This document shows positions 1,481-26,883 of a DNA stretch of 34,219 nucleotides, piece after piece. Position numbers and translations under genes: made by a program. Origin of the DNA: Halobacteriales archaeon QS_5_70_17 (GTDB lineage Archaea; Halobacteriota; Halobacteria; Halobacteriales; Haloarculaceae); the NCBI GenBank assembly GCA_003021975.1, contig PXRR01000058.1:1-34219 (forward strand), written 5' to 3'. The notes under the pieces are model-generated. The model did no database searches and had not been told where the DNA came from. It worked only from the letters and a program-made list of their open reading frames with translations. Every line of letters begins with the position of its first letter. Position 1 is the stretch's first letter.

Positions 1481-1627
1481 GCCGGTCCCGTCGGCCCGAG
1501 GGACGTAATGATTTGGTTCTTCCACGTCTCCTTAGTAAACCGGAGAGCGCTATACGGAACTCCGGGTGTCCCGGTCGCCAACACTTTAGCGAGATATACA
1601 TATGCCTCGGCGTCTACTTCCGTCGCA
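1481..1627. promoter_or_regulatory. Divergent promoter region between gcvT and the Bat-type regulator
   Basis: This spacer carries AT-rich elements facing both ways. Toward the regulator, ATATACATATG at about 1595-1605 lies 23-33 bases before the ATG at 1628, the expected TATA position for a leaderless haloarchaeal transcript. Toward gcvT, TTTACTAA (minus strand, about 1533-1541) would give a short leader. The assignment rests on position and base composition only. Confidence 0.5.
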
Positions 1628-3715
1628 ATGACGGAGCCATCGGTGTCGAGCTACCCCTTCGACGGCGATCCGTCCTCCGACGAGTTCGCCGACGTCTTCG
1701 AGCGTATCTCCGACGCTATCTTCGCGCTCGACGAGGAGTGGCGGTTCACCTACCTCAACGAGCAGGCCGAGGAACTGCTCGACCGGTCCGCCGAGGAACT
1801 CGTGGGAGAGGTCGTCTGGGACGCGTTCCCGGCGGCCGCCGGATCGCGCTTCCGGGAGGAGTACGAACGCGCGATGACCACCCAGGAGTCAGTCGCCTTC
1901 GAGGAGTACTACCCCCCGCTGGATCGCTGGTTCGAGGTGCGGGCCTACCCCTCCGAGTCGGGACTGTCGGTCTATTTCCGGGACGTCTCCGACCGCGTCG
2001 AGCGGGAGCGGGAGATCGAGCGCCGCGAGCGTGCGCTGCGCCGGGCCTACGAGATCGTCGGGAGCACCGAGTTCTCCTTCCCCCAGAAGATCGACGCGCT
2101 GTTGGGAGTCGTCCGCGAGGCGGTGGGGACCGACTACGCGGCGCTGTCGCATATCGTCGACGAGGAGTACGTCTTCGAGTACGTCGACGCGCCGGCCGAC
2201 GCCGACCTCGAGGCGGGCGACACTGCTTCGCTGGAGGCGACGAACTGCGAGCGCGTCGTCGCCACCGAGGAGACGCTCGTGCTCAACGACGTCGCGGCCG
2301 ACGCTCCCGAACTGGCCGACCGAGCGGGCAACGCCGAGTGGGGCATCTCCTGTTACCTCGGCGCGCCCGTGATCGTCGACGGCGAGACCTACGGCACCTT
2401 CTGTTTCTACGACCTGGAGGCCCGCACCGAGGACTTCTCCGACTGGGAGGTGACCTTCGTCGACCTACTGAGCAACTGGGTGAGCAACGAACTCGAACGC
2501 CAGCGGTACGTCGACCGGGTCGCAGCGGTCAACGACCTCAACGGGATCATCCGCGAGATCACCGACGCCGCGATCAGCCAGTCCACGCGCGAGGAGATCG
2601 AGGCCGTGACCTGCGAGCGCCTCGCGGCGACCGACTCCTACCGGTTCGCCTGGATCGGCGAACCGCACCCGCCGACCCAGGAGGTCCGAGCCACCGCGGA
2701 GGCCGGCGTGGAGGACTACCTCGCGGACACCGCGATATCGACCGACCCCGAGGCCGACGAGAGCTTCGGTCCGACCGGCCGCGCGGTCCTGACCGGGGAG
2801 ATGCAGACGGTCCAGAACGTCCGGACGGACCCCGTGTACGAGCCCTGGCGGGACAACGCCGAGCGATACGACTACCGCTCGGCGGCCGCCGTTCCTATCG
2901 CTCACGAGGAGACTCTCTACGGCGTGTTGAACGTCTACGCCGACCGGACCGAGGCGTTCGAGGGCGAGGAGGGGAGCGTCCTCGCACACCTCGGCGAGAT
3001 CCTCGGGCACGCCATCGCCGCCGTCGAGCGCAAGCAGGCGCTGATGAGCGACGCGCTCGTCGAACTCGAGTTCCGGATCGGCGACGTCTTCGGGGAGTGG
3101 GGAGTCGACGGGACTCCCGTCGGACCGATCGTCGTCGACGAGTTCGTCCCCGTCGGCGACGGGGAGTTCCTCGCCTACGGGACGGCCGACGAGTCGACGG
3201 TCGGGGTGCTCGAGGACCTCGCCGAGGGCGCGGCGCCCTGGAACGACATCGTCCGCCTCGGCGACCCCGACGAGGGCGGCGAGTTCGCCCTCCGACTCTC
3301 CGAGCCGCCGGTGCTGTCGATGGTGGCCTCTCGCGGCGGTCGGATCGAGCAGGTCGTCATCGAGGACGGCGACCTGGTGGGGACGGTCCGACTCCCCCAG
3401 AGCGTCGACGCCGGACAGGTACTCGACTACATCGGCGAGACCTACCCCAGTACCGAACTGGTTTCCAAGCAGCGGACGACCCGGCCGACGGACACTGTCC
3501 AGCGGGTCGAGTCGACGCTGACGGGGGAACTCACGGAGCGACAGCTGACCTCGTTGCGAGCGGCGTACTTCACGGGCTACTTCGAGTGGCCGCGGGACGC
3601 GACCGCGGAAGAGCTCGCGGAGCAGCTAGACGTCTCCTCGCCGACGGTCCACAAACATCTACGGGCCGCACAGAGCAAACTCTTCGGAGCGCTACTCGGT
3701 GACGCCTCCGGGTAG
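1628..3715 (+). CDS. Bat-type sensory regulator: PAS, two GAF domains, HTH_10
   Basis: Probable cytoplasmic signal-responsive transcription regulator of the bacterio-opsin-activator (Bat) class, 695 residues. Domains in order: PAS at about 23-122 (DVFERISDAIFALDEEWRFTYLN), a short charged coil, GAF at about 155-295 with YLGAPVIVDGETYGTFCFYD, a second GAF at about 310-455 with AAAVPIAHEETLYGVLNVYA, a Bat-specific GAF/HTH-associated region, and a C-terminal HTH_10 (LTERQLTSLRAAYFTGYFEW, then AEELAEQLDVSSPTVHKHL). There is no kinase or receiver domain, so it looks like a one-component sensor that binds DNA itself. The open frame extends far upstream antisense to gcvT. I chose the ATG at 1628 because the PAS domain follows directly and a TATA-like element sits at the correct leaderless spacing. 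The ligand and targets are not visible. Confidence 0.88.
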   Translation: MTEPSVSSYPFDGDPSSDEFADVFERISDAIFALDEEWRFTYLNEQAEELLDRSAEELVGEVVWDAFPAAAGSRFREEYERAMTTQESVAFEEYYPPLDRWFEVRAYPSESGLSVYFRDVSDRVEREREIERRERALRRAYEIVGSTEFSFPQKIDALLGVVREAVGTDYAALSHIVDEEYVFEYVDAPADADLEAGDTASLEATNCERVVATEETLVLNDVAADAPELADRAGNAEWGISCYLGAPVIVDGETYGTFCFYDLEARTEDFSDWEVTFVDLLSNWVSNELERQRYVDRVAAVNDLNGIIREITDAAISQSTREEIEAVTCERLAATDSYRFAWIGEPHPPTQEVRATAEAGVEDYLADTAISTDPEADESFGPTGRAVLTGEMQTVQNVRTDPVYEPWRDNAERYDYRSAAAVPIAHEETLYGVLNVYADRTEAFEGEEGSVLAHLGEILGHAIAAVERKQALMSDALVELEFRIGDVFGEWGVDGTPVGPIVVDEFVPVGDGEFLAYGTADESTVGVLEDLAEGAAPWNDIVRLGDPDEGGEFALRLSEPPVLSMVASRGGRIEQVVIEDGDLVGTVRLPQSVDAGQVLDYIGETYPSTELVSKQRTTRPTDTVQRVESTLTGELTERQLTSLRAAYFTGYFEWPRDATAEELAEQLDVSSPTVHKHLRAAQSKLFGALLGDASG

Positions 3716-3722
3716 CGCGATC

Positions 3723-3866
3723 TCAGACCGCGGCGACCTCGCGGAACGTGTTACTGCCACACCGGCACCGACCGTCCTCAGTCGGCACGAGCAGCGTCTC
3801 GTCGCTCTGTTTTCGAGCCGTGTACACTCCCCCACACTCGGTGCAGATGGCTGGCGTTTGATCCAT
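3723..3866 (-). CDS. 47-aa zinc-ribbon mini-protein
   Basis: A small unannotated-size gene starting MDQTPAICTECGGVYTA and ending GRCRCGSNTFREVAAV. Cysteines 8 and 11 (CxxC) and 34 and 36 (CxC) form a plausible single zinc site. It lies tail-to-tail with the Bat-type regulator with only 7 bases between the stops. A TATA-like TTTTAGATAC lies about 75-85 bases upstream of the ATG. Function unknown. It belongs to the very small zinc-binding proteins that are abundant in haloarchaea. Clean start and stop and paired cysteines support it as a real gene. Confidence 0.7.
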   Translation of the reverse strand: MDQTPAICTECGGVYTARKQSDETLLVPTEDGRCRCGSNTFREVAAV

Positions 3867-4072
3867 ATTGGATTCCCTCCCCGGTCTCCCGGGATCACGT
3901 CCACACGAACTATTGAGATCGGGGTAGGGGTTCGGGCTAGGTATCTAAAACAGGCGGGCGGGCGCCTCGAGGTCCCGTTCGCCCCCGTTCCGACGGCGCC
4001 TGCGGCGCTCGGCAGGGCGACGGTTCCGCGCTCCCGGCGGGCGGCGCCGGTTCGCGGGAGCGGCCCGACCGG

Positions 4073-5938
4073 TCAGGCGAACTCTCCCATGTCCAGTGCT
4101 TCGAGCCGATCTCGCGTCGGGACGCCGTCGTCGGTCCAGCCCCGGTAGTCGTAGTAGGCGTCGAGCATGGCCTCGAGTTCCTCGGGAGGGCAGTGCATCC
4201 CCTCGGCGGGGCCGTCGGGGATGGGATCGTGCATCACGCGGTGTGAGAGCGTGTCCGTCTCGCGGCTGGCGACGCCGCGCTCGACGTTGATGAGCCGCTC
4301 GAGATTGTAGATTCGCTCGCCGATGCGCTCGACGTCCTCCACGGAGAGTTCCCAGCCGGTGGCGGCGGCGATGGCGTCGCGGTAGCGCTCGTTGATCTCG
4401 GTGCCCCACCCGCCCTCGCTGACGAACCGACACTGCGTGAGCGAGTCCCCTAGCGCCGTGTAGTGCTGGGAGCGGGCGGCGAACTCCGGGGTCCCATCGG
4501 TCGTCTCGTCGTGGTGGCCGGCGTACTGGCGGGTCGGCCGCGTGTCGTGGTGGGACCCCCCACGGGTCGCCGTCGCGTAGCCGATACTCATCCCCTTCAG
4601 CCCCCGCGGCGAGTGTGCCGCGAACTCCAGACCCTTCGACCCGTGCAGGTACTGCTCGGCTTCGTCGGCCAGGGATTCGGCCAGCCGGAACGACCCCTCC
4701 GCGAGGCGGTCGCCGCCCCCCTCCCGGCGGGCCGTTCGCGCGGCGAGGTCGACCAGCCCCTCCGCGTCGCCGAACTCGAGGGCGGCCCGCTCTTCGGGGT
4801 CGTCGACGTCGAGCAGTCCGTTCTCGGCGCACTCCCGGGCGAAGGCGACGGTCACCCCCCAGCTGATGGTGTCCATGCCCAGCCGGTCACAGCGGTCGTT
4901 GGCCTCGATGACGGGGTCGAGATCGTAGACCTCCTGCATCGGGCTGGTGGCGAAGAGGCTCTCGAACTCGGGGATCTTGGCCTCGGTCAGTCCGCGGCTC
5001 TCGACGGAGACGTGTTTGCCACAGCGGACCGGGCAGTTCGCGCACGTCGTGTCCTCGGTGATGTACTCGGCCTTGAGGCGTTCGCCGCTGACGGCCTCGG
5101 CGTCGTCGGGATCGTTGTGTTCGCGCTGGTAGTTGCGCCGGCCGAGTTTCCCCATCTCGTTGATCGGGTTGACGAGGCCGCTGGTGCCGTACTCCTGGAG
5201 CATCTGGGTGTCCTGCATGAGCCCGGGCATCTGGTCGGCGGCCAGTTCCCGGAGCCCCCGCTCGTCGGCGAGGTGCGGTTCGAAGTCGCCCTCGCGGACG
5301 GCGACGGCCTTGAGGTTCTTCGCCCCGAGGACTGCGCCGCTGCCGCCGCGGCCGGCGACGCCCTCGCGGATCTCGGAGTCGTGAACCAGACAGGCGTACC
5401 GGACCTGGTTCTCGCCGGCGGGGCCGGCGGCGATGACGTGGGTGTCGTAGCCGTCCCCCTCGCGCTCGCGGATGGCCTCGCAGGTCGCGTAGGTCTCCAT
5501 GCCCCGGAGGTCCGCGGCGGGTTCGAGGCGCGCGCCGTCCTGGTCGACGTGGAGGTAGGAGGGCTCGTCGGCTTCGCCGTGGAGGACGATGGCCTCGAAG
5601 CCGGTCGTCTTCTGGGCCCGGGGGAACGTGCCGCCGAACGTCGAGTCGAAGAAGCCGTTCGTCATGGGGCTGATGAACCCCACGACGCCGCGACTCGTGC
5701 TCTGGAAGGGCGTGGCGTTCATCGGTCCCACCGCGAACACGACCGCGTTCTCGGAGTCGAAGGGGCCGGTCTCCGGCGGGACGTGCTCGTGGATCAGTTT
5801 CGCCGCGAGGCCGTTCCCCCCCAGGAATCGCCGGGCGTCCGCGGTCGCGATGGGCTCCCGCCTGGTCTCGCCGCGCTCCAGGTCCACGTGCAACACCTCG
5901 CCGCCGTACACCGGCGGCAGGTCGCCGCTGTCGGTCAC
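4073..5938 (-). CDS. Aldehyde:ferredoxin oxidoreductase (tungsten/molybdopterin enzyme)
   Basis: Oxidises aldehydes to carboxylic acids with ferredoxin as acceptor, using a bis-pterin metal cofactor and one 4Fe-4S cluster; cytoplasmic. The 621 residues match the AOR family in length. The cluster ligands are visible: CANCPVRC (C299, C302, C306) and C503 in TQCRFVSEGG, at nearly the same spacing as in Pyrococcus furiosus AOR. Other landmarks are FLGGNGLAAKLI near the N-terminus, GRGGSGAVLGAKNLKAV, and RCDRLGMDTISWGV. I place the start at the GTG at 5938, giving MTDSGDLPPVYGGEVLHVDLE, because upstream codons in this frame do not resemble the family. The GTG overlaps the stop of a 23-codon ORF. 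The divergent neighbour is an iron-type alcohol dehydrogenase, so the pair may interconvert alcohol, aldehyde and acid. Confidence 0.93.
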   Translation of the reverse strand: MTDSGDLPPVYGGEVLHVDLERGETRREPIATADARRFLGGNGLAAKLIHEHVPPETGPFDSENAVVFAVGPMNATPFQSTSRGVVGFISPMTNGFFDSTFGGTFPRAQKTTGFEAIVLHGEADEPSYLHVDQDGARLEPAADLRGMETYATCEAIREREGDGYDTHVIAAGPAGENQVRYACLVHDSEIREGVAGRGGSGAVLGAKNLKAVAVREGDFEPHLADERGLRELAADQMPGLMQDTQMLQEYGTSGLVNPINEMGKLGRRNYQREHNDPDDAEAVSGERLKAEYITEDTTCANCPVRCGKHVSVESRGLTEAKIPEFESLFATSPMQEVYDLDPVIEANDRCDRLGMDTISWGVTVAFARECAENGLLDVDDPEERAALEFGDAEGLVDLAARTARREGGGDRLAEGSFRLAESLADEAEQYLHGSKGLEFAAHSPRGLKGMSIGYATATRGGSHHDTRPTRQYAGHHDETTDGTPEFAARSQHYTALGDSLTQCRFVSEGGWGTEINERYRDAIAAATGWELSVEDVERIGERIYNLERLINVERGVASRETDTLSHRVMHDPIPDGPAEGMHCPPEELEAMLDAYYDYRGWTDDGVPTRDRLEALDMGEFA

Positions 5939-6006
5939 GCGGCGCCCCCCGCGTCGGTCCGGAGCGCCTCGCGCACTGCTCTGCAGTGGTCGCGTGTGTC
6001 GTTCAT
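5935..6006 (-). CDS. Possible 23-aa leader peptide or micro-protein ahead of the AOR gene
   Basis: An ORF beginning MNDTRDHCRAVREALR stops at a TGA that overlaps the GTG start of the oxidoreductase (GTGA). A TATA-like CGTTTTGCTCAC (minus strand, about 6025-6036) lies 20-30 bases before its ATG, so a leaderless transcript would begin exactly at this small ORF and the enzyme would be reached by coupled translation. It has one cysteine and no recognised family. It could simply be the transcribed leader of the AOR gene; conservation in other haloarchaea would decide. Confidence 0.4.
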   Translation of the reverse strand: MNDTRDHCRAVREALRTDAGGAA

Positions 6007-6112
6007 GGGCCCTCTCGCAGTGCTGTGAGCAAAACGGTTGTGCCGCGCGGGCGACCCGCTCTCGGCGGACCCCGAAAAGTGCTAAACCTCCCCGTACCTG
6101 AATCCCCGTGGT
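6007..6112. promoter_or_regulatory. Divergent promoter region, AOR leader ORF and alcohol dehydrogenase
   Basis: The 106-base spacer has a TATA-like CGTTTTGC facing left at about 6025-6036 and AAAAGTGCTAAAC facing right at about 6075-6087, each some 25-38 bases before the respective start codon. The arrangement allows joint regulation of the two enzymes. I see no convincing palindromic operator. Confidence 0.45.
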
Positions 6113-7345
6113 ATGGAGTATCCGGATCCGGAACACGGAACGCGACTGGTCGTCTCGCCGAGTAAAGTCGTCCTCGGGCGCGGGGCCGCAGAGGAGGTCG
6201 GGGACTACGCCTCGACCTACGGGCGTCGAGCGCTGCTCGTCGCCTCCGAAGTGATCTTCGACATCCACGGCGAGTCGATCGTCGAGACCCTCGAGTCGGC
6301 GGGGATGGAGGTCGTCACCTACACCGACGTCCGGCCGGACCCGACCGTCGAGAACATCGAGGCGGCCTTCGAGCGGTGGCAAGCCGAGGACTGCGACGTG
6401 ATCGTCACGCTCGGCGGCGGGTCGTCCATCGACACCGGGAAGGGGGTCGGTATCCTCGCGGCCAACGGCGGGTCGATCCGCGACTACGGCGTCGATCGGG
6501 CCGGCTACGAGGGCGTGCCGACCCCGACGCCGCCGATCGTCGCGGTCAACACGACCGCCGGGACCGGCAGTGAGGCCACCCGGTCGGTCGTCGTCACCGA
6601 CGAGTCCACCGCGACGAAGTTCCTCATCGTCTCTCAGAACGTCGTTCCGACGGTCGCCGTCGAGGACCCCGAGCTGACGCGCTCGCTGCCCCGGAGCCAC
6701 ACCGCGTTCACCGGGATCGACGCCCTCACCCACGCCATCGAGGCGTTCGTCTCGGTGCAGTCCTACAGCGTCTCCGACGACTACGCCCGGTCGGCGATCC
6801 GGCGGATCAGCGACTCGTTCACGAAGGCGTGGGCCAACGGCGACAATATCGAGGCGCGCACCGAGATGATGATCGGGCAGCTCCAGGCCGGTCAGGCGTT
6901 CACCAACGCCTCGGTCGCGCTCGTCCACGGCATGGCGCGACCCCTGGGCGCGCAACTCCACGTCCCCCACGGGCTGGCCAACGCGCTCATCCTCCCGTAC
7001 GTGATGGAGTTCTCCGCGATGGCCGCCCCCGAGAAGTACGCCGAGATCGCGCGTCTGATGGACGCCGCCGACGATGACACGCCCGACCGGGAGGCGGCCG
7101 ACGCTGCCGCCGACGCCGTCCTCGACCTCTGTACGGACGTCGACCTGGCCTCCTACCTCGACGAGTTCGGCGACGTCCCCGAGCGCGGCGACTACCTCGC
7201 CGTCGTCGGGGAGATGGCACAGGACGCCATCGACTCCGGATCGCCCGACAACAACCCGCGCAAGCCGACCCGGAAGGAGATCGAGTCCCTCTACGTGCGG
7301 ATCTACGACGACGCGCTCGCGCCCGACAGCCCCCGGCGCTCGTAG
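6113..7345 (+). CDS. Iron-containing alcohol dehydrogenase family protein
   Basis: NAD(P)-dependent group III alcohol dehydrogenase, 410 residues, cytoplasmic. The nucleotide-binding half shows VTLGGGSSIDTGKGVGILAANGG and VNTTAGTGSEATRSVVVTDE. The metal-binding half shows TGIDALTHAIEAFVS, then VHGMARPLGAQLHVPHGLANA, which supply the usual Asp and His ligands. Length is normal for the family and the frame is intact. The ATG at 6113 is preceded by a TATA-like AAAAGTGCTAAAC. It is divergent from the aldehyde oxidoreductase, which suggests joint alcohol/aldehyde metabolism, but the substrate cannot be read from the sequence. Related butanol-type or lactaldehyde-type dehydrogenases are alternatives within the family. 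Confidence 0.88.
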   Translation: MEYPDPEHGTRLVVSPSKVVLGRGAAEEVGDYASTYGRRALLVASEVIFDIHGESIVETLESAGMEVVTYTDVRPDPTVENIEAAFERWQAEDCDVIVTLGGGSSIDTGKGVGILAANGGSIRDYGVDRAGYEGVPTPTPPIVAVNTTAGTGSEATRSVVVTDESTATKFLIVSQNVVPTVAVEDPELTRSLPRSHTAFTGIDALTHAIEAFVSVQSYSVSDDYARSAIRRISDSFTKAWANGDNIEARTEMMIGQLQAGQAFTNASVALVHGMARPLGAQLHVPHGLANALILPYVMEFSAMAAPEKYAEIARLMDAADDDTPDREAADAAADAVLDLCTDVDLASYLDEFGDVPERGDYLAVVGEMAQDAIDSGSPDNNPRKPTRKEIESLYVRIYDDALAPDSPRRS

Positions 7346-7510
7346 GCGCCGCGAACGATCCGCCGGCCCTCTCCCTTCTGGCCCCGGTCGAGGGACGGTC
7401 CGAGGGCCGGGGGGCGTGATCGGCGCCCGCCGCGACTGCGGCCGACGGCGGGGCGGACCCCGACGGGACCGTGACCGCCGCCGAGCACCGCTCGACGGAC
7501 GGTTCCGCGT

Positions 7511-8858
7511 TCAGCGGTTCTCGATCCGCCCGGCGGCGGTGAGGAACGCGCCCATCCAGTCGTGGATGTCGTTGCGACCGACCGCCCGGCGCAGCGCGCG
7601 GCTCCGCCGGTTGCGCTCGGCGGGATTCATCGTCAGGGCGGTTTCGACGGCCGTCGCCAGCGCCTCGGGATCGAACGGGTAGACCGACAGCGCGCCCGCC
7701 GAGGCCAGGCGCTCGCTCGCGCCGGCCTGATCGGAGAGCACGAGCGCGCCGTCGCCGTCGACTTGCGCCGCCGCGTACTCCTGGGCGACGAGGTTCATCC
7801 CGTCGCGGAGCGGCGTCACCAGCCCCAGATCGGCGCGGCGGTACAGCGCGCAGAGTTCGTCCCGAGAGTACATCTCGTCGGTGTAGACGATCGGCGTCCA
7901 GTCGTCGGTGCCGAAGCGCTCGTTCACGCGGTCGATGGCGTCCCGGACGTCCGCCTGGTGCTCGCGGTAGGCGGGGATGCTCGACCTGCTCTCCGAGCCC
8001 TTCTGGACGTAGACGAGGTCGCCGCGGAACTCCGGGCGCTCCAGCAGGTCGTTCTTGAGGTCCTCGACGAGCTTCATCGGCGGCTCGGTCATCTGGAACC
8101 CCAGCCCGGCGTTGATGGTGGTCTCGGTGCGCGGGAAGTACCAGAGGTACCCCGCCGCGCGGTCGGTCGGCTTGAACACCAGCGCGTCGTCCCACGGCAC
8201 CGGCTCCTCGACCTCGACGATCTCCGGCAGTACCGCTCGACGTGGAACCCCAGCAGGTCGTTGCCAAGCAGCCCCTCCAGCAGGTCCCGGCGCTGCGGGC
8301 AGGCCCGAAACACGTCCGGACCGGGCCAGGGGATGTGCCAGAACTGCGCGCAGAACGCCGACGGGCGCGCCTCGCGGACCATCTCCGGCGCGAGCGCGAA
8401 GTGGTAGGCCCTGGAACCAGATCGTCCCACCGTCGGGGTTCTCGAGGACGGCGTCGGCAAACGCCCGGTTGACCCGCCGGTAGGTCCGCCAGTCGTCGGC
8501 GTCGAAGTGCATCCGTCCGATATCGGAGTGACAGAGCGGCCAGAGCGTCCGGTTGGCGTGCCCCCGGTAGTAGCCCTCGGCGTCGCCGTCGGTGGGCCCG
8601 AGGTACCACAGCGCGTACGCCGGATCCGACGGCGGGACGTCGACGCGCCCGTCGTCGCCGGTCGCCTCGCGGTCGGCCGCGCCGTCGCCTCAGGCGACCC
8701 ACGCCCCGCCGACGCGCTGCATCGCGGGGGCCGAGACCGGCGGTGAGACCGTCGCCAGCCGGTCGACCGCGATCTGGCTGTCGTCGCTGTCGCTCCCGCC
8801 CTCGTACGTGTCTGTACGGTTGCCGGTTCGAGACGACCGTCAGGTCGCCTCCCGGTAC
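7511..8858 (-). pseudogene. otsA: Broken trehalose-6-phosphate synthase (GT20), chimeric centre
   Basis: OtsA would make trehalose-6-phosphate from UDP-glucose and glucose-6-phosphate. Recognisable pieces in order: LTVVSNRQPYRH (N-terminal start region), YEGGSDSDDSQIAVD in another frame, AMQRVGGAWVA then an in-frame TGA where Trp is expected, EGYYRGHANRTLWPLCHSDI, a one-base shift at about 8407, HFALAPEMVREARPSAF through FWHIPWPGPDVFRACP to LLGFHVERY, then foreign sequence, then YVQKGSESRSSIPAYREHQ, FGTDDWTPIVYTDE, LVTPLRDGMNLVAQEY and the normal C-terminus. The part normally holding the RLDYTKG substrate loop is absent. I count about four frame disruptions, one nonsense codon and one replaced block, so no active enzyme is made. 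The C-terminal 333 codons remain open from an ATG at 8512. The original start is unclear; 8858 marks where similarity begins. No otsB is present nearby. Confidence 0.85.
8021..8230 (-). other. 70-codon geranylgeranyl-reductase-family fragment inside otsA
   Basis: The stretch starting LPEIVEVEEPVPWDDALVFK and ending LLERPEFRG is not GT20 sequence. It carries YLWYFPRTETTINAGLG (8099-8149), a perfect match to the YxWxFP(x8)GxG substrate-site motif of the FAD-dependent geranylgeranyl reductase family, whose haloarchaeal members hydrogenate lipid isoprenoid chains. The following GFQMTEPPMKLVEDLK also fits that family. At the downstream end it passes in frame into OtsA sequence through RPEFRGD, close to the RPEWRGD expected in OtsA. 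The upstream end is out of frame with the preceding OtsA piece. The complete reductase gene is not in this window. Confidence 0.8.
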
Positions 8859-20098: not shown

Positions 20099-21322
20099 AT
20101 GAGCAGTAACGAGACGGGCAGTCCCTTCGCGCCCCACACCGACGCCGAGACGGCGGCGATGCTCGACGCCGTCGGCGTCGCCGGCGAGGAGGAGCTGTTC
20201 GACATCCCGGAGACCGTACGGTTCGACGACGAGTTCGGCATCGAGGCCCGGAGCGAGCGGGCGGTGCGGGCGCACCTCGGTTCGCTGCTGGGCCGCAACG
20301 ACGACCTGACGGAGTTCCTCGGCCGGGGTCACTACGACCACTACGTCCCCTCCGTCGTGGACCACCTCGCGGACCGGTCGGAGTTCCTGACGAGTTACAC
20401 GCAGTACCAGCCCGAGGTCGCCCAGGGGTTCCTGCAGGCGCTGTTCGAGTACCAGTCGATGCTCGTCGAGCTGACGGGGCTGGACGTGGCCAACTGCTCG
20501 ATGTACGACGCCGCGACCGCGCTCGGCGAGGCGGCGACGCTGGCCGCCCGCGTCCGGGCGGCCTCCGGCGACGTCGTGCTCGTCCCCGACCTCCTCCACG
20601 AGAACCGCCGGTCGACACTGGAGAACTACGTCGCCGGCGCCGACCTGACCGTCGAGTCGTACCCGACCGACGACGCCAACGCCGACGTCGAGGCCGTCGC
20701 CGACCGGATGGACGACGACGCGGTGATGCTGTACGCCGAGTCGCCGACCGTCCGGGGGACCATCGAGGAGCGCCTGTCGGCGCTCGGCGACCTCGCGGCC
20801 GACCACGACGACGGCCGGATCCAGTACGACGGCCACCGGACCCACGTGGCGGCGTTCCTCCGGCAGGTGCCCGGCCGCCTCGTCGGCGCCGCCGAGGACG
20901 GCGACGGCCGGCGGGCGTACACGCTCACGCTCCAGACCCGCGAGCAGCACATCCGCAAGGAGCGGGCCACCTCGAACATCTGCACCAACCAGGCGTGGGT
21001 CGCCCTGCGGACGGCGATGCACGTCGCCCAGCTCGGCCCCGACGGGCTCGTCGACCTCGCCGAGGAGTGCGTCGTCGGCGCGCGTGAACTGGCCACCCGC
21101 GTCGACGACGTCACCGGGATCCGGGCGCCCGTCCACGACCGCCACCACTTCCGGGAGTTCGTCGCCCGCACCGACCAGCCGGCCCCGGCGGTCGCCGCCG
21201 ACCTCGAGGGCGAGGGGTTCGCGCTCCACGCGATCGACGACCACCTGCTGCAGATCTGCACGACCGAGGCGAACGCCGCCCACTGGGACGCGCTCGTCGA
21301 GGCGCTGGGGGTGGTCGCGTGA
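20099..21322 (+). CDS. gcvPA: Glycine dehydrogenase (decarboxylating) subunit 1, with replaced internal segment
   Basis: N-terminal half of the split P protein, which with GcvPB decarboxylates glycine. Conserved parts are present: [61 protein letters not shown], and [20 protein letters not shown]. The frame is open over 407 codons, about 35-40 fewer than usual. Between GDLAADHD (to residue 237) and [10 protein letters not shown] (from 254) the family normally has about 50 residues, including the glycine-rich GD region; here there are 16 unrelated residues. The product is therefore probably impaired if the sequence is correct. It overlaps gcvPB by GTGA. TATA-like candidates are TATGATAA at about 20030 and CACTTTTC at about 20084. 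Confidence 0.88.
20810..20857 (+). other. 48-base OtsA-like insert replacing part of gcvPA
   Basis: Residues 238-253 of the gcvPA product read [16 protein letters not shown]. This is not P-protein sequence. It resembles the part of haloarchaeal trehalose-6-phosphate synthase just before the PLGVD motif, which is exactly within the block missing from the otsA gene at 7.5-8.9 kb. It is in frame at both ends. The left edge falls in GACCACGAC and the right edge in GCGTTCC, short sequences that could occur in both parents. The match is by recognition of a short pattern and needs a database search. Confidence 0.55.
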
Positions 21323-25395: not shown

Positions 25396-26743
25396 TTACA
25401 GTTCCCGCTCGGCCTCCCTGAGCAGACCGTCGATGATCTCCGGGGTCGTCGGGTGGTACGCCCGGTCCGGGATCGCTCGGACGTCCATCTCCGACTCGAC
25501 GACGACCTGCATCGTCTTGGCCATGACGTCGGCGTGGTAGTGCAGCCCCTGGTAGCCGAGCACCGTCCCGTCGGTGCCGACGACCAGTCGCGCCAGCCCC
25601 TCGGGGTGGCCTTTCGTCGCGAACACGCCGTCTTGCCTGGCCTCGCGGGTGACGGCGACGTGATCGATTCCCGCCGCCTCGGCGGACGCCGCCGAGTGAC
25701 CGACCCGGGCGAACGGGTAGACGGCCAGCCCCGAGAAGACGACGTGGTGGTGGACGTTCTCGTACTGCCGGAGGGATTTCCCCTCGCGGTGCCGGAGGAC
25801 GTTCTCGGCGGCGACGCCGGCCTGCTCCTTGGCGACGTGCAGGATCGGCTCCCCAGTCGGGACCGGGATCCAGCGACGCGGCCTCGAGGCCGAGACCGTC
25901 GAGGGCCGGGCGGCGTCCGGCGAACACGAACAGCTGGTCGGCAGTGATCGTCTCCCGCTCGTCGCCGCGCTCGACGGCGAGTTCGACCCCGCCGTCCCCG
26001 TCCGGGCCGGCCGGCGCGAGCGACAGCTCCCGGGTGTCGGTCCGGACGTCGATGCCGAACGCCTCGCGGTAGCGGTCGAGCAGCGCGTCCCCGAACGGGT
26101 CGTCGGCCTCGTCGAGTGGCCGGCGGTCGTGCTCGATCACGGTGAGGTCCACGTCGCCGACCTCCGCGAGGTACGGCGCCATCTCGAGGCCGACGTACCC
26201 GAAGCCGACAACGATTCCGCTGTCGCCGAACTCGGTCGCGTCGAGGACGTCCGCGCTCGTCAGGTACTCCACGTCGTCGATGCCGGGGATGTCCGGGACG
26301 TTCGGCTCGGAGCCGGTGGCGACGACCACGTAGTCGGCCTCGACGACCCGCTCACCGATCCGAACGGCGTGACCGTCCCCGTCGTGGTCGACGAACGTGG
26401 CGGTTTCGTGGTAGAACTCCACGGAGTCGCGGTCGGCGAGCTTATCGACCGCCGACCGGCGGTGCCGCGCGAAGTTCGCCACGTGCTCGTCTTTCCGTTC
26501 GACGACCGCTTCCAGGTCGACCGCGGGGGTTCCGTCCAGACGGTCGTCGGCGCGGGCCTGGTAGCGGTGGGCCCCCGCCGAGAAGACGTCCTTCGAGGGC
26601 ATGCACCCCCGGAGGATGCAGAGTCCGCCCCCCGGATTGCCGTTGTCGACGAGCGTCAGTTCGACGCCCGGTTCGTCGGCCAGCGCGTCCGCGACCGCGA
26701 CCCCTGCGCTCCCGTAGGCACCGATGACGACGACGCGAGTCAT
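25396..26743 (-). pseudogene. Class I pyridine nucleotide-disulfide oxidoreductase, frame-broken by an internal deletion
   Basis: A flavoprotein of the dihydrolipoyl dehydrogenase/mercuric reductase class. The N-terminal FAD motif VVVIGAYGSAG and the redox disulfide GLCILRGCMPSK (C42, C47) are intact, followed by VVVATGSEPNVPDIPGIDDV and the NAD-binding GIVVGFGYVGLEMAPYLAEV. At about 25850-25856 the frame breaks: LDPGPDW is followed, in another frame, by EPILHVAKEQAGVAAENVLR. The dimerisation domain continues normally (ENVHHHVVFSGLAVYPFARV, GYQGLHYHADVMAKTMQVVV) to a TAA at 25396. About 20 residues that normally contain the second FAD motif (VFxxGDANG) are missing, so no active enzyme should form. 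A TATA-like AAAGCGTAAGC lies about 24-33 bases before the ATG. Confidence 0.8.
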
Positions 26744-26883
26744 ACTAGACGCGAGGGTGCCGACCGCTTACGCTTTCTCCCCGGTGAGGACGACCGCCCG
26801 CTCCGCGCCGACCGCCGGCGGGCGATCGCGCCGCTGATCGGGTCGGTCGCCGCAGAAATGAGTGGGTGCCCGGTAGACGGGGA

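Follow-up and report, generated by a model that had tools for sequence, protein, structure and literature searches.

A mosaic of otsA and a geranylgeranyl reductase fragment in a haloarchaeal draft genome very probably arose from a wrongly closed assembly gap

In haloarchaea, gene conversion is the non-reciprocal replacement of an internal stretch of sequence. By the definition given in an abstract on the subject (see PMC8223754 and PMC11276520), it acts between homologous sites. Local assembly errors at the scaffold gaps of MAGs have also been described, and the relevant sections of PMC7111523 report k-mer-sized overlaps of contig ends for IDBA-UD and metaSPAdes. Here we analyzed a 34,219-bp stretch of DNA (hereafter the window), which makes up the whole of contig C58 in the draft genome of a haloarchaeon (2.6 Mb, 78 contigs, 73% complete) and in which part of a geranylgeranyl reductase (GGR) gene interrupts otsA. 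The locus resembles haloarchaeal gene conversion in that an internal stretch of otsA has been non-reciprocally replaced, but otsA and GGR are not homologous, unlike the partners in that definition. With the errors described in those sections of PMC7111523 it shares N-gapped scaffolds, contig-end overlaps about one k-mer long and apparently false protein-coding sequence without support from relatives. The test applied there was lack of read support, whereas ours relied on gap sizing and comparison with relatives, and the constant shortfall reported below does not figure in those sections.

Pieces of otsA in several frames occupy positions 7511–8849 on the minus strand of the window. Pfam GT20 matched the C-terminal OtsA stretch at 7511–8021 (1.3e-52, profile positions 301–469) and a middle stretch in a different frame at 8227–8418 (3.2e-18, profile positions 149–208). 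Profile positions 209–300 are absent between them. A search of the genome placed a further stretch (profile positions 82–147) at 8411–8593, and alignment to the otsA of a same-genus genome, G001, revealed an N-terminal stretch with more indels at 8700–8849. All of these features lie on the minus strand, as does a GGR-encoding patch at 8022–8224, where about 290 bp of otsA would be expected. The RLDYTKG loop, which is present in G001 otsA and in a second otsA of the draft genome (contig C42, 510 aa), falls in the absent block. Outside the patch, an in-frame TGA at 8690–8692 takes the place of a TGG in G001 otsA, and indels that are not multiples of three occur relative to G001 near 8806, 8794, 8784, 8751, 8726, 8433, 8423 and 8411; the otsA remnant is therefore broken beyond the patch too. 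Thus, clear GT20 stretches flank the patch as in OtsA (trehalose-6-phosphate synthase; GT20; TIGR02400), but the window gene lacks profile positions 209–300, has a broken frame and a stop, and does not encode the complete GT20 domain in one frame that a functional OtsA has. The broken frame, the stop and the missing catalytic block likewise rule out a working fusion enzyme. Beside otsA, positions 4076–7342 carry an aldehyde ferredoxin oxidoreductase gene and an iron-containing alcohol dehydrogenase gene; positions 1518–7540 have no match in the corresponding G001 stretch (L042).

The patch matched Pfam GGR_cat (3e-06) and the geranylgeranyl reductase family TIGR02032 (7e-10, residues 98–190 of the chimeric ORF). 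At the DNA level, its 203 bp were 81% and 78% identical to two GGR genes on contig C4 of the same draft genome (E values 7e-51 and 3e-42), which rules out chance similarity. The segment YLWYFPRTETTINAGLG in the patch fits the motif YxWxFP(x8)GxG, which we take to be a GGR signature. An earlier note on the window had pointed to this motif and had described otsA pieces on both sides of GGR sequence with the catalytic block absent; the GT20, GGR_cat and TIGR02032 matches bear out that description, and the stretch 8021–8230 placed with GGR rather than in GT20 proteins. Sequences related to the patch are encoded by 274 stretches in a genome-contig collection. The patch shares with the GGR family positions 31–57 of the 88 in GGR_cat (27 positions) and part of TIGR02032, but it differs in being only 203 bp long, with no gene, start or FAD-binding N-terminal part of its own, so that instead of a complete GGR enzyme the window has a fragment with otsA on both sides. 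As also noted earlier, the frame changes at the upstream otsA/GGR junction and is kept at the downstream one, at RPEF/RGD. The matching bases at the junctions number about 10 downstream and about 3 upstream, as judged from relatives.

To compare the locus with its relatives, we searched with the DNA of the otsA region, covering 40 genomes, the window's own included. In G001, the otsA sequences on either side of the patch site have 76% identity to those of the window, the neighborhood is collinear, and a single open frame runs through the patch site. The aligned flanks are separated by 187 bp in the window and by 290 bp in G001, leaving the window otsA 103 bp short. It is also 103 bp short of the C42 otsA, the intact copy that the earlier note had proposed to look for, and 94–109 bp short of 18 relatives with both flanks among the matches listed. 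At E values of at most 1e-62, the window alone among 392 genomes of the order (same-species genomes not included) matched across both otsA/GGR junctions, and the five other matches at this threshold covered the GGR part only. Of seven matching plasmid records, three aligned with the GGR part and four with trehalose-6-phosphate synthase, and none of the seven matched across both junctions or over most of the query.

Differences from G001 at the first, second and third codon positions of otsA amounted to 0.233/0.186/0.36 in the C-terminal segment, 0.136/0.169/0.339 in the middle segment and 0.233/0.267/0.302 at 8420–8686. The corresponding values for intact neighbors were 0.094/0.092/0.307 (gcvPB), 0.183/0.127/0.344 (sodium/proton exchanger) and 0.099/0.09/0.285 (HMG-CoA synthase). 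By this codon-position measure, constraint is apparent in two of the three otsA segments but not in the third. The damage beyond the patch possibly reflects either recent decay or sequence errors near a gap.

The donor of the patch likely came from outside the genus, judging by sequence affinity. Its best DNA match among the 392 genomes of the order was 87% identical and came from other families; no DNA donor of at least 90% identity was found among these genomes, and no protein donor of at least 90% among 80 of the 274 relatives in the genome-contig collection, the top one reaching 88% at the amino acid level. The patch was at most 80% identical to nine GGR copies of the genus and at most 87% identical to those outside it. 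The two GGR genes of the draft genome itself were rejected as exact donors, being only 81% and 78% identical; a GGR gene with the same 210 bases, for which the earlier note had proposed a search of the rest of the genome, was not found in the 73% complete draft, where the best match was 81%. In a GGR tree of 115 segments of 198 bp, some rows of which are one species taken from two collections, the draft's own GGR genes fell into two clades with genus copies (support 100/98 and 99/95), and the patch lay outside both. It paired with an uncultured archaeon (97/83), and this pair grouped with sequences of Halorussus, Halegenticoccus and G030, though with weak support (83/78). A source in reads of a different haloarchaeon from the sample would be consistent with this; horizontal transfer may instead have supplied the patch.

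The otsA lesion has counterparts in other genes. Comparison with relatives identified gcvPA (20099–21322, plus strand) as a second patched gene of the window contig, in which the native sequence is replaced at 20800–20858 (plus strand) by 59 bp that match the draft's own C42 otsA exactly. Its aligned flanks are 40 bp apart versus 148 bp in G001, match coordinates make it 108 bp short relative to each of seven other genus genomes, and about 11 and 5 bases match at the joins. The gcvPA frame is open in all seven of these genomes (457–467 aa; four of them aligned). A pyridine nucleotide-disulphide oxidoreductase gene of the window (25399–26749, minus strand) shows a deletion and frame change relative to G001 at 25853–25869, with 15 bp in place of 80, so that 65 bp and 22 residues are missing. 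On contig C4, an oxidoreductase-like gene is 103 bp short relative to G001 (L011:15951–15952) and changes frame with no inserted sequence. The G001 counterparts of both oxidoreductase genes carry Pyr_redox_2, and both lesions are deletions with no patch.

These counts comprise the four lesions seen inside genes, drawn from many collinear gaps between the draft and G001; some other gaps were longer in the draft than in G001, and those at gene ends (for example, L011 6185/6238) were set aside. Open-frame scans for broken genes were noisy, since antisense frames in GC-rich DNA produce spurious open frames and stops. The first scan flagged eight pairs in the draft sample and two in a control of six stretches from other genus genomes, counts too few to weigh, and it missed gcvPA and the window oxidoreductase gene, which were found by a second scan and by the collinear-gap comparison. 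In that second scan, stops occurred in 21 of 89 frames of the draft and in 15 of 36 control frames, and stops there are therefore uninformative. Within 395,665 bases of the draft, short exact copies were limited to the gcvPA patch and two other pairs, so patches derived from its own sequence are uncommon in this sample. The replaced stretches have a GC content of 0.67–0.77 in G001 against a mean of 0.675, giving no firm link to GC. Contigs C35 and C77 share 122 bp at 95% identity (L157:9585–9706 and L162:14268–14389).

The draft is a scaffolded assembly with gaps inside genes, as exemplified by an N run on C69 that lies within a G001 open frame. The 395,665 bases, window included, contain 14 N runs, and the window itself contains no N. 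We defined the shortfall of an N gap as the distance between its flanks in a relative minus that in the draft, and of nine runs tested seven could be measured; the 18-N run of C12 and the 30-N run of C4 yielded no usable flank pair. The 19-N run of C69 was short by 103 bp in G001, and the 158-N run of C7 by 102 bp in G003, G004 and G005. For the 66-N run of C7, the shortfall was 135 bp in G004, G006 and G007, 144 bp in G001 and 300 bp in G002, and for the 53-N run of C12 it was 140 bp in G002, G003, G004, G006 and G007 and 134 bp in G001. On C8, the 54-N run was short by 154 bp in G001 and 151 bp in G004, and the 177-N run by 171 bp in G004. The 43-N run of C4 was short by 169 bp in G003 and G004 and by 163 bp in G001, G002, G005, G006 and G007. 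All seven measured gaps are thus too short, by 102–171 bp apart from the single value of 300 bp in one of five relatives. Three of the four broken genes show a length error within this range (otsA, 103 bp; gcvPA, 108 bp; the C4 gene, 103 bp), and the 65-bp shortfall of the window oxidoreductase gene lies below it and does not fit. In addition, exactly 99 bp are common to three contig ends (the starts of C7 and C63 and the end of C25), and no other pair among the 43 contig ends compared shares at least 30 bp. These shared ends suggest de Bruijn assembly with a k close to 100, which fits the k-mer-sized overlaps in the relevant sections of PMC7111523.

We are highly confident that the otsA/GGR mosaic is a local assembly error, a strong inference though short of proof: the draft is incomplete and scaffolded, its measurable N gaps are all too short, and four genes are broken at N-free sites, three of them with the same shortfall. 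The fused-looking sites look like undersized scaffold gaps that were wrongly closed. Sequence coverage would have failed within otsA, with its two sides kept connected by read pairs. The resulting gap would have been made about 100 bp too small and filled with part of a GGR gene, probably that of a different haloarchaeon in the sample, and this filler would have joined the flanks through a few to about ten matching bases. Relatives are normal at these sites (otsA in G001; gcvPA in all seven other genus genomes), and an ordinary otsA sequence probably occupies the patch site in the real genome. The earlier note had named recombination and assembly error as the main explanations. For its second proposal, good support comes from the sizing of the N gaps, from further broken genes on this contig and on C4, from the open otsA of G001 and from the foreign affinity of the patch; its first gained nothing beyond the short matching stretches at the junctions. 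Several points count against an assembly error, namely the few junction bases, the stop and indels beyond the patch, the 65-bp misfit, the N-free window and the want of an exact donor among the sequences searched. The junction matches of about 3 to 11 bases are below what a long-k assembler needs, which makes it necessary to assume a lenient gap closer, and the stop and indels are as would be expected of a real pseudogene.

A real illegitimate recombination, in which the cell took up foreign GGR DNA that then displaced about 290 bp of a second, decaying otsA through short matches, would accommodate the roughly 10 and 3 matching bases, the foreign affinity of the patch, the intact paralogue and the damage beyond the patch, including the one segment without codon-position constraint. 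We nevertheless consider it very improbable: gcvPA and two oxidoreductase genes are similarly broken, no other genome among the 392 of the order matches across both junctions at the same E-value threshold, and signs of constraint persist in two of the three otsA segments. Above all, the shortfalls match those of the N gaps, and there is no reason why a cellular recombination event should mimic the sizing error of an assembler. It is scarcely credible that chimeric DNA molecules formed during library amplification and were carried into the assembly; this would suit the short junction matches and the joining of pieces of unrelated genes, both own and foreign, but each patch needs two switches, the second of which must return to the original gene with order and strand preserved, and the N-gap-like shortfalls are left unexplained. 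We regard as extremely unlikely, too, a haloarchaeon that swaps short stretches of its genes for unrelated foreign or own DNA by way of 3–11 matching bases, with several such events caught here.

If a wrongly closed gap is indeed the source of the otsA/GGR mosaic, then false gene fusions and deletions are possible in a scaffolded draft genome without any N as a warning. A suspect fusion can be tested without reads by setting its length error against that of the N gaps in the same assembly. Were the mosaic real after all, it would represent an unusual way for haloarchaea to patch their genes.
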